Origin: Chloroflexota bacterium | GTDB lineage: Bacteria; Chloroflexota; Anaerolineae; CG2-30-64-16 | Direction: 5' to 3' | Assembly: GCA_029555885.1 (NCBI GenBank) | Contig: JAKPQT010000554.1 | Span: 1 to 6,878 of the forward strand | DNA length: 6,878 bases | In this document: one piece after another, positions 2,506 to 5,765 of the stretch | Position numbering within the stretch: position 1 is the first letter of the stretch | Layout of the letters: the number at the start of each line of letters is the position of its first letter | Notes under the pieces: model-generated | The model's database searches: none | The model's input: the letters and a program-made list of their open reading frames with translations, nothing else | Told to the model about the DNA's origin: nothing | Position numbers and translations under genes: made by a program

Positions 2506-3579
2506 TTACCGGTTCAACAGCGGGTGTGCGGGCGCAGCTTCACTAGCTGCGCCCGCCCGGACCTCGGCAGTGCGGATGCGGTAGACGAGGTCGATGGCGG
2601 GGCGGGCGTCGGCGATGCGGAAGCCCCGGCCGGCCAGGGTTTCTTCGTAGACCCTGGTATGCAGGCCGGTGAAGCCCTCGGTGAACTCGATTTCCTCGCC
2701 GTCGACGGTGATGGAGCGGAACGTGCTGCGCGCACCGGGTTCGACCGGGAAGGGCAGGTCCGCCGGGTCGATGGAGAGGAACCAGCGGACGCGGGCGCGT
2801 TCCAGCTCCAGGTAGCCGGCCATGCGCTGCGGGTCGGAGTGATGTACGGCCGGGCTGCGCACGGCTTTGCCAAAGAGCCACAACAGCAGGTCGAAGAAGT
2901 GGACGCCGATGTTGAGCGCGATGCCGCCGGACTTCTCCGGCGCGCCCTTCCAGGAGACGTGGTACCACGGGCCGCGGGCGGTGATGTAGGTCAGGACGAC
3001 GTCGTGTGTGCGACGCGGGGCGTCGCCCGTGCGACGCGGGGCGTCGCCCGTGCGACCGGCATCACCCGCCGCGAGGGCCTCGCGCAGCTTGAGCAACTGC
3101 GGGTGCACCCGGAGTTGGAGGACAGTGTGGATGCGGCGGCCGGTCTCGGCCTCGAGCTCCTCCAGCGCGTCCAGGTTCCATGGGTTGATGACGATGGGCT
3201 TCTCGCAGATGACGTCCGCGCCGGTGCGCAGCGCGAGGCGGCAGTGGGCGTCGTGCAGGTAGTTGGGCGAGCAGATGCTGACCCAGTGGACGCGCTGCTC
3301 CTCCGGCCCGCGGCGCAGCTTCTCGAGGTGGCGGTCGAACCGCTCGATCTCGGTGAAGAAGCGGGTGTTATAGCTGTACTGGTCGAGCACGCCGACCGCG
3401 TCCTTCGGGTCGACGGCCGCGACGAGGACGTTGCCCGTATCGCGGATCGCGCGCAGGTGCCGCGGCGCGATGTAGCCGGCGGCACCGATGAGCGCGAAGT
3501 TGGAAGGTTGTGCGAGCTGCGGCTCGCCCGAGGTTGAAGGTTGCAAGTTACCGGTGGAAGGTTGCAGGTTGGTGGTCAT
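2506..3579 (-). CDS. wlbA: UDP-N-acetyl-2-amino-2-deoxyglucuronate 3-dehydrogenase (Gfo/Idh/MocA family, WlbA/WbpB type)
   Basis: A cytoplasmic Gfo/Idh/MocA oxidoreductase. WlbA/WbpB enzymes use NAD to oxidise C3 of UDP-GlcNAcA, an early step toward UDP-diacetamido-uronic acids of O-antigen and other glycans. Diagnostic features: NFALIGAAGYIAPRHLRAI (27-45, Rossmann start), SICSPNYLHDAH (101-112), ICEKP (124-128, Lys127), TYITARGPWYHVSWKG (197-212), NIGVHFFD (223-230, His227) and GYLELERARVRWFLSI (255-270). The family normally starts just before NFALIG; here about 25 extra residues (NLQPSTG NLQPSTS pattern) come from a heptad-hairpin-heptad repeat, with no other ATG available. The ATG at 3579 overlaps the preceding stop (TGATG) and has no Shine-Dalgarno site, which suggests coupled translation. 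A repeat-derived insert (RTGDAP, about 173-190) and a hairpin-encoded tail (341-350) are further oddities. The partner aminotransferase, acetyltransferase and epimerase are not in the window. Confidence 0.96.
   Translation of the reverse strand: MTTNLQPSTGNLQPSTSGEPQLAQPSNFALIGAAGYIAPRHLRAIRDTGNVLVAAVDPKDAVGVLDQYSYNTRFFTEIERFDRHLEKLRRGPEEQRVHWVSICSPNYLHDAHCRLALRTGADVICEKPIVINPWNLDALEELEAETGRRIHTVLQLRVHPQLLKLREALAAGDAGRTGDAPRRTGDAPRRTHDVVLTYITARGPWYHVSWKGAPEKSGGIALNIGVHFFDLLLWLFGKAVRSPAVHHSDPQRMAGYLELERARVRWFLSIDPADLPFPVEPGARSTFRSITVDGEEIEFTEGFTGLHTRVYEETLAGRGFRIADARPAIDLVYRIRTAEVRAGAASEAAPAHPLLNR
2528..2556. repeat. GC-rich hairpin inside the 3' end of wlbA
   Basis: Perfect inverted repeat: GCGGGCGCAGCT (2528-2539), loop TCACT (2540-2544), AGCTGCGCCCGC (2545-2556). 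It lies about 20 nt inside the wlbA stop and encodes much of the Ala-rich tail RAGAASEAAP, beyond the conserved part of the protein. It could be an RNA structure at the end of the transcript, but no U-run follows. Confidence 0.8.
3008..3056. repeat. 21-bp tandem repeat in frame within wlbA, each unit a hairpin
   Basis: Two perfect 21-bp units (3008-3028 and 3029-3049) plus a 7-nt partial third (3050-3056). Each unit contains the perfect hairpin GCGACGC-GGG-GCGTCGC (3010-3026 and 3031-3047). On the minus strand they encode the repeated RTGDAPR stretch, just before the conserved HDVVLTYIT. The 21-bp unit keeps the frame. Confidence 0.9.
3498..3573. repeat. Composite repeat: GGTTGAA heptads flanking a GC hairpin, translated as the wlbA N terminus
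   Basis: Heptads AGTTGGA and AGGTTGT (3498-3511), hairpin GCGAGC-TGCG-GCTCGC (3512-3527), then six heptads in exact register from 3532 to 3573 (GGTTGAA, GGTTGCA, AGTTACC, GGTGGAA, GGTTGCA, GGTTGGT). The block covers wlbA codons about 3-28 and reaches the first conserved codons (Asn27-Phe28). Confidence 0.9.
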
Positions 3580-3995
3580 CAGTTGGATGTCTCGTATTCG
3601 GTGATGGATTCGCGGGTGCGGCGGGTGTTAGGCTGGGTGTCCAGGTAGCTGATGAAGCGGCTTATCAGGCGGCTGCAGTGTTCGGTCTCCGTCTTGAGAC
3701 GGCTAAACTCCTCCTGGGATAGATAGCCGGCACCGAGCGCGACGTAGAGCTGCGCGCGCAGCTCGCCGGCCGAGCCCTTGGCCCGGCCCAGGAAGTCAGC
3801 AAACATGGCCTGAGAGCGCGATTCGAAGCCTTCCGCGATATTGGACATTACCGAGACGGCAGCCCGTCGCATCTGATCCCGCAGACCGTAGTCGCGGGCA
3901 AAGCCCCCGCGCTCGGACAACTGGTATATCTGCTGCGTCAATGCCCTGGCGACTTTCCAGGCCTCGATGTCTTCGAAACGTTCAATCGTTGCCAT
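3579..3995 (-). CDS. Four-helix-bundle protein (S23 / 23S rRNA-intervening-sequence-like)
   Basis: A 138-residue protein of the four-helix-bundle family first noted in 23S rRNA intervening sequences and related to the bAvd protein of diversity-generating retroelements. Family marks are the N-terminal RFEDIEAWKVAR (5-16), then GLRDQMRRAAVSVMSNIAEGFE (about 38-59), then FLGRAKGSAGELRAQL and a C-terminal helix. I chose the ATG at 3995 (not the GTG at 4001) because GGAGGG lies 5 nt upstream. There is no reverse transcriptase or rRNA nearby, so neither classic setting applies; stand-alone copies among polysaccharide genes are known, with no settled role. Its TGA overlaps the wlbA ATG by one base, so it probably drives wlbA translation. 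The promoter seems to sit in the heptad array upstream. Confidence 0.93.
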   Translation of the reverse strand: MATIERFEDIEAWKVARALTQQIYQLSERGGFARDYGLRDQMRRAAVSVMSNIAEGFESRSQAMFADFLGRAKGSAGELRAQLYVALGAGYLSQEEFSRLKTETEHCSRLISRFISYLDTQPNTRRTRESITEYETSN

Positions 3996-4000
3996 GACCA

Positions 4001-4006
4001 CCCTCC
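4001..4006 (-). promoter_or_regulatory. Shine-Dalgarno site of the four-helix-bundle gene
   Basis: GGAGGG on the minus strand, 5 nt before the ATG at 3995. It overlaps the alternative GTG at 4001 and so favours the ATG. Confidence 0.8.
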
Positions 4007-4014
4007 GGATGACC

Positions 4015-4043
4015 GTTATAGGTTGGAAGGTTGAATGTTACAA
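4015..4043 (-). promoter_or_regulatory. Candidate promoter built from heptad repeat, ahead of the four-helix-bundle and wlbA genes
   Basis: On the minus strand TTGTAA (4043-4038), a 17-nt spacer and TATAAC (4020-4015) resemble a sigma-70 promoter. The -35 element and spacer consist of heptad repeat; the -10 lies just outside it. Transcription would start near 4008, leaving a very short leader that begins at the Shine-Dalgarno site. Confidence 0.4.
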
Positions 4044-4147
4044 GTTGACGGTTCACAGTTGAAGGTTCGAGATTTAAAGGTTGGCACCCTCCAGGCGCAA
4101 ACTTGCAACTTCCAACCTTCGAACCTGCAACCGCTAACCCTGCAACC
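4021..4147. repeat. Convergent GGTTGAA heptad arrays forming an imperfect inverted repeat
   Basis: From 4021 to 4085 the plus strand carries GGTTGAA-type heptads, seven in register from 4029 to 4077. After a short centre (4086-4099, CACCCTCCAGGCGC) the complementary form AACTTGC, AACTTCC, AACCTTC follows to 4147. The block fills the gap between the second SDR gene and the four-helix-bundle gene, and its last 14 nt supply the SDR C-terminal codons and TAG stop. Confidence 0.85.
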
Positions 4148-5099: not shown

Positions 5100-5118
5100 G
5101 AACCTACCTTTTTTGCAC

Positions 5119-5197
5119 GGTTACAGGTTCGAAGGTTGAAGGTTGAAAGTTGTGCTCACGCGGTAACCTGCAACCTTCAACTTCTCAACCTTCAACC
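5119..5197. repeat. 79-bp direct repeat, copy 1, self-complementary
   Basis: Copy 1 of a direct repeat starting every 87 bp; it differs from copy 2 (5206-5284) at 7 of 79 positions. The left arm (5119-5151, GGTTGAA-type heptads) and right arm (5165-5197, AACCTTC-type) pair at about 25 of 33 positions around a 13-nt loop (5152-5164, containing GCTCACGC). Confidence 0.88.
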
Positions 5198-5205
5198 ACG
5201 AAAAG

Positions 5206-5284
5206 GGTTACAGGTTCGAAGGTTGAATGTTGAAAGTTATGCTCACGCAGTAACCTGTAACTTTCAACTTCTCAACCTGTAACC
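5206..5284. repeat. 79-bp direct repeat, copy 2, self-complementary
   Basis: Copy 2 of the repeat. Here the outermost 11 bp pair perfectly (GGTTACAGGTT, 5206-5216, with AACCTGTAACC, 5274-5284), whereas copy 1 is mismatched there. The loop keeps GCTCACGC. Confidence 0.88.
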
Positions 5285-5286
5285 CG

Positions 5287-5322
5287 TAATATGCAACCTT
5301 CAACTTTAGAACCTTCAACCCG
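5287..5322. repeat. AACCTTC-type heptad run after the membrane protein gene
   Basis: AACCTTC, AACTTTA, (G)AACCTTC and AACCCGG follow each other on the plus strand just outside the TGA of the interrupted DMT gene. They are a continuation of the repeat block 5119-5284. Confidence 0.65.
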
Positions 5323-5323
5323 G

Positions 5324-5713
5324 TCAAACGCTCCACGCGACGAGGAGCACGCCGGCAATGATAAGGCCGATGCCGCCCCAGCGCAAGAGCGGGATGGCTT
5401 CGCCCAGGAAGATGCGGGAGGTGAGGGCGATCAGGACGAAGTTGAGCGCCAGGAACGGGTAGGCCAGGCTGAGCGGCAGGCGCGACAGGACGATGATCTA
5501 CGAGAGTGCGCCGATGCCGTAGAAGACGTAGCCGAGCCACACGAGCGGCGAGCGGAACGCGGTCAGCAGAAACTCGGCGCCGGCGTTGGCGTGGCCGCCC
5601 ATCTGCGTCGTGCCAAGTTTGAGCACGGTCTGGCCGGCGACGCTGCATGCGATCGAGAACAGGATCAGGGCGATGGATGTAAGCATCTTCTTCCTGGAGT
5701 GTGTCGTGTTCAT
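5324..5713 (-). pseudogene. Small DMT-superfamily (ArnE/ArnF- or EamA-like) membrane protein interrupted by an in-frame TAG
   Basis: The frame encodes a four-helix membrane protein of about 129 codons, like small DMT/SMR proteins including the ArnE/ArnF flippase subunits found in glycan clusters. Helix 1 contains LILFSIACSVAGQTVLKLG (residues 16-34, with the GQ...K pattern); helix 2 follows FRSPLVWLGYVFYGIGALS (53-71). Codon 72 (5500-5498) is TAG, then the same frame continues without a break as IIVLSRLPLSLAYPFLALNF, further hydrophobic helices and a TGA at 5326-5324. Relatives usually have Trp near this point, so TGG to TAG is the simplest explanation. The start at 5713 has AGGA nearby; an ATG at 5686 is an alternative. 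As it stands only the first 71 residues (5713-5501) would be made, unless the TAG is suppressed or is a sequencing error. Confidence 0.75.
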
Positions 5714-5724
5714 GGCTTCCTGTG

Positions 5725-5765
5725 TTTTGGGGTATGGGGAGGCGCAGCCTCCCCATACCCCAAAA
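5725..5765. repeat. Perfect 19-bp-arm hairpin between the epimerase and DMT genes
   Basis: The arm TTTTGGGGTATGGGGAGGC (5725-5743) and its exact reverse complement (5747-5765) are separated by only GCA (5744-5746). The hairpin ends 5 nt from the upstream gene's stop codon and 11 nt from the DMT start. No U-run follows it on the minus strand, so it is not a standard terminator; it could be a mobile palindromic repeat or an RNA-stabilising or attenuating structure. Confidence 0.92.

Follow-up and report, generated by a model that had tools for sequence, protein, structure and literature searches.

The STRR sequences of cyanobacteria are direct repeats of heptamers. Heptamers also accompany the S23p gene in the 23S rRNA IVS of Coxiella burnetii. 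Terminal inverted repeats of this IVS form a stem around the S23p ORF, and GACAGAT heptamers, two or three plus one degenerate and variable in number between strains, lie directly upstream of the S23p start (PMC4990558). The same paper states that IVP/S23 proteins have no known function. In Beggiatoaceae, TAACTGA heptamers occur near starts and some of them in ORFs, with no evident mechanism of transmission according to the abstract (PMC4679880), and the words S23 and four helix are absent from the text of that paper. Rickettsia palindromic elements are palindromes of about 150 bp inside ORFs, where repeat DNA is found in frame in unrelated protein genes (PMC10969869). The family PF05635 is reported to resemble Avd of diversity-generating retroelements (PMC10053308), and passages of two further papers name four-helix-bundle genes in gene tables without mention of repeats (PMC8700078, PMC5524665). 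In a search of titles and the beginnings of abstracts, with preprints and most subscription papers outside its range, none of the papers listed connected heptad arms with IVP/S23 genes located outside rRNA, the nearest being the Coxiella paper (PMC4990558).

The wlbA locus and its repeat-encoded N terminus

The window, by which we mean the whole stretch of 6,878 nucleotides analysed here, is a sugar-metabolism locus whose minus strand encodes, in addition to a WlbA/WbpB-type dehydrogenase, an IVP four-helix-bundle protein and two members of the epimerase/dehydratase family. The named relatives are Chloroflexota, with WlbA homologues from Anaerolineales bacteria and an IVP homologue (P0127) from Chloroflexi bacterium ADurb.Bin325. 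The wlbA product resembles WbpB/WlbA in both sequence and fold (PDB and Foldseek matches); it reached no NCBIfam cut-off, and the enzyme name, which would imply oxidation of UDP-GlcNAcA, was taken from JGI records. The IVP gene is located in the operon between the epimerase-family gene and wlbA and likely starts at the ATG at 3995, with GGAGG upstream. An Rfam scan of the window gave no match at the gathering score. Elsewhere in the window, a small transporter-like frame (by eye) at 5498–5713 on the minus strand stops after 71 aa, its relative in G102 contig L097 (5407–5793) having 128 aa, and a 19-nt inverted repeat at 5725–5765, perfect and with a loop of 3 nt, is terminator-like. Two gene pairs at 891–2404 on the minus strand, DUF5615 with DUF433 and DUF3368 with UPF0175 (Pfam families), may be toxin-antitoxin-like modules.

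Features of the wlbA locus, with positions counted from the first letter of the window
Feature	Position	Strand	Basis
WlbA/WbpB-type Gfo/Idh/MocA dehydrogenase, 357 aa	2506..3579	-	PDB WbpB 3oa2, E 7.5e-98; Foldseek WlbA 3o9z, E 3.6e-35; Pfam PF01408
Second in-frame repeat insert in WlbA, about residues 175–191; 21-bp hairpin units encoding GDAPRRT	3008..3056	-	TRF
Repeat-encoded WlbA N terminus, codons 1–26, MTTNLQPSTGNLQPSTSGEPQLAQPS	3502..3579	-	ORF reading and alignment; residues 1–22 pLDDT <50
GC hairpin inside the tail, GGGCGAGCCGCAGCTCGCAC	3510..3529	-	Hairpin count; homologue proteins
IVP-unit 3' heptad arm inside wlbA, of CAACCTT type (mRNA sense)	3531..3571	-	TRF; arm score 22; predicted pairing with 5' arm
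wlbA start codon/IVP stop overlap, TGATG	3577..3581	-	Sequence; start codon predicted paired, unpaired probability 0.00–0.03
IVP/S23 four-helix-bundle gene	3579..4001	-	PF05635, E 3.9e-33; TIGR02436, E 2e-31
Palindromic 5' heptad arm region of the IVP unit	4012..4147	-	Repeat searches, TRF, RNA fold; outer part 4122–4147 predicted to pair with wlbA 3539–3570
Two palindromic heptad arrays, 11–13 nt between arms, so no IVP gene inside	5119..5320		Repeat searches, TRF; RNA fold of 5115–5200, z -4.46

An earlier note, made from the sequence alone, had suggested that a repeat element became the N terminus of WlbA. Judged from the sequence, the N terminus is indeed repeat-derived, with codons 1–26 made up of heptads and a GC hairpin ahead of N27. 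Residues 1–32 run through M, TT, NLQPSTG, NLQPSTS and GEPQLAQPS into NFALIG, and the peptide period of seven residues that the note had read from them was recovered in the ORF, together with a TRF array at 3531–3571 (7-nt period, 5.9 copies, 67% matches, score 40). The conserved enzyme begins at NFALIG, as had also been proposed: the Pfam GFO_IDH_MocA match starts at residue 27, which is profile position 2, the PDB WbpB match starts at residue 26, and N27, F28 and A29 are invariant in 25 aligned sequences. In the AlphaFold2 model (25-row alignment, mean pLDDT 80.3) the first strand comprises residues 27–32, and the pLDDT falls below 50 only in residues 1–22 and 179–184, both of which are repeat-encoded. 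WlbA is thus one enzyme with two in-frame repeat inserts, both predicted to be loose. The 21-bp units of the second insert are one fewer in homologue P0001 and absent from P0003–P0006.

The tail hairpin and two 21-bp units further down wlbA share the frame GGCGA..TCGCAC, a type of hairpin found four times in the window compared to 0.19 expected. The same pattern gave 24 matches in the close genome G102 and three in a reversed control. As a feature linked to IVP genes it was dropped; in G102 it forms the core of a longer palindrome without heptads, the hairpin GGCGAGCCTTCGGCTCGCAC being the centre of a dispersed palindrome CTCTCCTGAC..GTCAGGAGAG (L176–L178, L182, L185 and L191). Additionally, an ORF at 3–671 on the minus strand, without a Pfam match and membrane-like by eye, begins with heptads (NLQSSIL) and a hairpin in the same frame, GGCGAAGCTCAGCTTCGCAC, at 569–588. 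It is a possible second repeat-encoded N terminus without an adjoining IVP gene.

The expectation that WlbA relatives start right at the conserved point was correct for 102 of the 120 homologues examined, the best 120 of 7999, which begin within five residues of it (101 by pattern and P0112 by eye). It did not hold for the seven most similar ones, which carry a heptad-type tail of varied form (six by pattern, P0003 by eye). The extension is thus confined, among these 120, to the closest relatives, and it was not conserved without repeat character in distant ones. The seven tails have 13 to 26 residues, occur in two flavours, NLQPST and NLQSSI, and only some of them include the hairpin. P0001 (98% identical) has exactly the tail of the window, P0004 and P0005 have the NLQSSI flavour, and, judged from the proteins, P0001 and P0003 have the hairpin whereas P0002 and P0006 lack it. 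Because a database protein is always in frame, frame conservation among these sequences is biased evidence. An IVP neighbour is suggested only for P0001, P0002, P0007 and, via G102, P0006 among the seven. In G102 the gene order is SDR-heptads-IVP-wlbA and the WlbA tail has 13 residues, MTDNLQPATFQPA; aligned with the longer tail of the window it leaves a single in-frame gap of 39 nt. Short repeats can mislead assembly, but the arrangement recurs in this separate genome and seven protein clusters of several origins have heptad tails, which makes an assembly or annotation artefact hardly credible.

The overlap of the wlbA start codon with the upstream stop was confirmed in the sequence. The accompanying statement that there is no other ATG was accurate for ATG itself and incomplete for other start codons: in codons 2–80 the only in-frame ATG, GTG or TTG triplets are a TTG at codon 12, inside the repeat, and a GTG at codon 64. 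Codons 13–26 contain none of the three, and the internal non-ATG start near residue 25 that would have spoken against the note has no candidate there. The tail is probably translated. If it were not, wlbA would start at the TTG of codon 12, or the array would be an untranslated regulatory or leader region, a role for which the Beggiatoaceae heptamers, described as putative regulatory sites near start codons (PMC4679880), offer a precedent. A start at codon 12 would retain half the repeat, no ATG, GTG or TTG from codon 13 to N27 could replace it, and G102 has preserved an ATG that overlaps the IVP stop (ATGA there, TGATG in the window) although the IVP end has changed. We therefore regard an untranslated tail as quite improbable.

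Inverted heptad arms around IVP genes

We scored the arms of IVP genes by aligning 150 nt of sequence upstream of each gene with the reverse complement of an equally long stretch downstream. The main set of 98 loci gave 92 IVP domains in 90 loci and 83 genes with full flanks, 82 from genomes of the class of G102 and one from the window. The loci L133–L161 came from seven genomes chosen for wlbA or heptads, L234–L261 were the best matches of a search, and L262–L301 were 40 further places hand-picked from the same list. The IVP homologues listed were the best 120 of 7983; one IVP protein, P0183, carries NPSTGHSTGSQGTSGHR as an insertion within the bundle, and its C terminus, NVETFQPANHD, is heptad-like.

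The median arm score was 23 in the 83 IVP genes and 10 for flanks paired across loci (P 9e-39), and 30 of the 83 exceeded the 99th percentile of the mismatched pairs. A score of at least 14 was reached by 76/83 IVP genes compared to 10/64 neighbouring ORFs, and the window's score of 22 by 2/64 control ORFs. With one gene per genome (50 genomes and the window) the proportion was 47/51, compared to 480/2550 mismatched pairs and 126/1020 shuffles. For the 83 genes, flank identity at lag 7 was 0.416 and 0.373, compared to 0.267 for control stretches, and the main peaks were those at lags 7, 14 and 21. Strong periodicity was detected in 49 of 166 flanks, of which 41 had period 7, six period 8 and two period 6 (one gene per genome). 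The repeat flavour varied by locus (GGTTGAA, CAGTTCT, GGGATCA, GGTGACA and others), and both arms of one locus match. Period 7 was also raised beside IVP genes, with z of at least 3 in a flank of 20/64 neighbouring ORFs versus 51/83 IVP genes, and direct rather than inverted similarity of the two flanks was high in 13/83. Weak arms were found for 13/124 IVP genes with 250-nt flanks, and with 150 nt 23/124 were below the score or length limit.

Arms were likewise present outside Chloroflexota, in genomes whose titles do not name this phylum: 21 of 28 IVP genes (in 27 of 30 loci) scored at least 14, compared to 86/754, a few of the high scores, such as those of L322 and L324, looking period 6 or coding-like. 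Cyanobacterial plasmid loci were weaker, with 7/13 at this level (P 0.0015; 13 of 22 records scored, L344 and eight others left out). In a Pseudanabaena galeata plasmid (L333, about 1350–1970) an IVP gene lies between cas6 and cas4 and is flanked by direct arrays, AGCTAAA and AGCCAAA; its inverted score of 7 is an exception to the arm rule.

The far better match of IVP arms within a locus than between loci, the predicted pairing of the window's two arms and the repetition of the arrangement at cas4 (see below) all speak against the view that an ordinary dispersed tandem repeat grew by slippage at the wlbA start from a seed, the heptad-like AACTTC in the NFA codons, with the IVP gene as a mere neighbour. 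We consider growth by slippage unlikely, although it would suit three observations: most heptad arrays elsewhere have no nearby IVP gene, the tails of P0004 and P0005 are of another flavour, and in G102 an ABC-permease-like ORF (by eye; L097, 706–1563, minus strand) begins with the heptad-encoded MTNLQPANLQPVTL without an IVP gene adjoining it on the contig.

Tandem 7-nt units are dispersed in the genome, a three-unit pattern giving 14 matches in G102 and none in the reversed control. No IVP gene was found near the arrays at 33 distinct sampled loci, which remained from at least 58 after overlaps had been removed; one array of the same listing, at G190:C446, does flank an IVP gene. In the complete array lists of four genomes, 3/36 were within 1.5 kb of an IVP gene and 33/36 were not, compared to a random expectation, which ignores contig ends, of 0.24 (P 0.002). 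Arrays outside IVP loci showed no excess of inverted partners by local alignment (27 of the 33 tested, P 0.36). As most arrays have no IVP gene nearby, the spread or maintenance of heptads does not depend on IVP, and IVP genes may have been inserted into spacers already rich in heptads instead of generating them.

Two sequence markers were tried and rejected. ATGAC followed by CAACCT heptads, as a start signature, gave 14 matches in 13 of 396 genomes of the class of G102, two of them in G102 itself, versus seven for the reversed pattern, and the exact start form is therefore lineage-specific or near chance. The exact heptad pattern as a marker of IVP neighbourhood occurred at 7/29 IVP loci versus 4/96 others, the flavour differing per locus.

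Other loci and the proposed mechanism

Sites with and without an IVP unit were compared by BLAST. Between Picosynechococcus PCC 7003 and PCC 7002 homology ends in the last cas10 codons (position 1435 of L341) and is found again from one base upstream of the cmr3 ATG (1884), and the piece specific to PCC 7003 consists of an arm, an IVP gene and an arm. In Anabaena sp. 90 an IVP unit lies between cas6 and cas4 that is missing in Dolichospermum UHCC 0315A (98–99% flanking identity), with homology starting again within the cas4 gene, near codon 23 in Anabaena and near codon 8 in Dolichospermum. The predicted Cas4 N termini are MFQNELTNSLPTVTCHLSPVTSDDDYVS in Anabaena sp. 90 and MSLENINSDDYVS in Dolichospermum. 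By this reading the 3' arm encodes the N terminus of Cas4 in Anabaena sp. 90 as it does at wlbA, so that the arrangement is found again in another gene and another phylum. Among the best 120 of 2168 Cas4 homologues a similar tail was seen by eye in six, whereas 98 start within five residues of the conserved point and 13 were outside the pattern.

The unit is therefore present or absent at orthologous sites in two plasmid pairs, for which no target duplication was defined and of which one 'empty' site holds another palindrome. This palindrome, AGGTTGGGTTGA..TTAACCCAACCTAC, is different and lies in the Dolichospermum cas6-cas4 spacer (L347, about 1030–1270); the spacer may therefore be a hot spot. 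Units may be mobile beyond these two pairs of sites.

Rewriting of a predicted N terminus by the 3' arm is also seen downstream of IVP genes in other genes and phyla, in proteins whose start lies close to the IVP stop. GDP-fucose-synthase-like proteins of two genomes (L140 and L141) have repeat tails of different length, MSNNKPSNLRSSAFWQNK and MSNNKPSTLNLQPETYWQDK. LarA has a repeat-encoded tail ahead of the family model in L245 and L256, with a later in-frame ATG at the usual start in L245. A repeat tail is also present in a LegC-type aminotransferase whose gene is cut by the contig end (L307), and in a CDP-glucose 4,6-dehydratase that matches TIGR02622 from residue 14 on (L330). The arm scores of these six cases were 17 to 33. 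Three further loci, which a lenient rule had counted as 'forced', do not serve as evidence: a third GDP-fucose-synthase-like case, L281, has no detectable arm (score 8), and the frames of L239 and L308 resemble spurious GTG frames. Of the 111 IVP loci (from 124) that have arms, 53 have an arm that stops short of the next start, 41 have possible starts on both sides, these three were 'forced' and 14 had no same-strand ORF. A translated arm therefore recurs but is not the rule.

The two arms differ in polarity, with G exceeding C in 92/101 5' arms and C exceeding G in 93/101 3' arms. Stop codons were rarer in 3' arms (258/5576 codons versus 369/5550 in 5' arms), and all three frames were open at 31 loci for 3' arms versus 13 for 5' arms; both arms hold more stops than composition predicts. 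The folded RNA of the window had a z of -4.0 (20 shuffles), and in the predicted fold 4122–4147 pairs with wlbA codons 4–14 and the start codon with 4009–4011. The arm-arm pairing probability was 0.56, compared to a mean of 0.09 when the 5' arm was shuffled 30 times, one shuffle reaching 0.54. In G102 the bases predicted to pair with the start codon are incompletely conserved.

Based on these results, we consider it likely that the tail of WlbA represents a translated 3' arm belonging to an IVP unit, an S23/IVP four-helix-bundle gene flanked by inverted arrays of repeats of about 7 nt. The note had not named this likely source of the repeat. Such a unit would have entered the operon between the epimerase-family gene and wlbA, as what we infer to be a single event. 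As 7 and 3 share no factor, all frames of an array use the same seven codons, and the CAACCTT sense strand is stop-free in any of them. The 3' arm, just downstream of the wlbA start codon, would therefore be read as NLQPST-type residues and give a loose N-terminal tail, and a stop-free 7-nt arm could be joined to any gene because its cyclic peptide does not depend on the frame. Since the arms differ in flavour and in number of copies, close relatives have tails of different length. On the transcript the two arms would pair with each other, with the IVP ORF between them and the wlbA start buried. We propose that wlbA is therefore translated by coupling to IVP translation, with ribosomes that end on IVP going on to translate wlbA.

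Comparison with known systems

The link between IVP genes and heptamers in several phyla would bring the questions of IVP function and of heptamer spread together in one testable object. It would also point to a recurrent route from non-coding repeats to protein N termini, since a heptad without stops gives one and the same peptide whichever frame is used. In a wider and more tentative reading, which we find possible but rather doubtful, IVP/S23 genes across phyla could be the coding part of a widespread element with heptad-array arms that enters spacers at gene starts, adds loose peptides and couples translation to IVP, and many dispersed bacterial heptamers could be its arms or relics.

Like the TAACTGA repeats of Beggiatoaceae and the STRR of cyanobacteria, the arrays described here consist of 7-nt units in mixed variants, lie near starts and in some cases in ORFs, and have an orientation limited by stops. 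With the Rickettsia palindromic elements they share repeat DNA in frame in a protein gene, but the WlbA tail is a tandem heptad arm at a gene start, beside a protein-coding unit. Diversity-generating retroelements with Avd have a reverse transcriptase and TR/VR repeats beside avd; no reverse transcriptase was found among the ten ORFs scanned in the 6.9-kb window. The 23S IVS of Coxiella burnetii is similar in its protein family, in its enclosing inverted repeats and in its tandem heptamers, and the window holds both an IVP/S23p protein and, by arm score and fold, terminal inverted repeats that enclose the ORF. Excision by RNase III is a further property of 23S IVS elements. However, the unit of the window is located in a protein-coding operon between an epimerase-family gene and wlbA and not in a 23S rRNA gene, both of its arms are locus-specific heptad arrays, and the 3' arm is read as the N terminus of the next protein. 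The unit would work like an IVS but is not classed as one.
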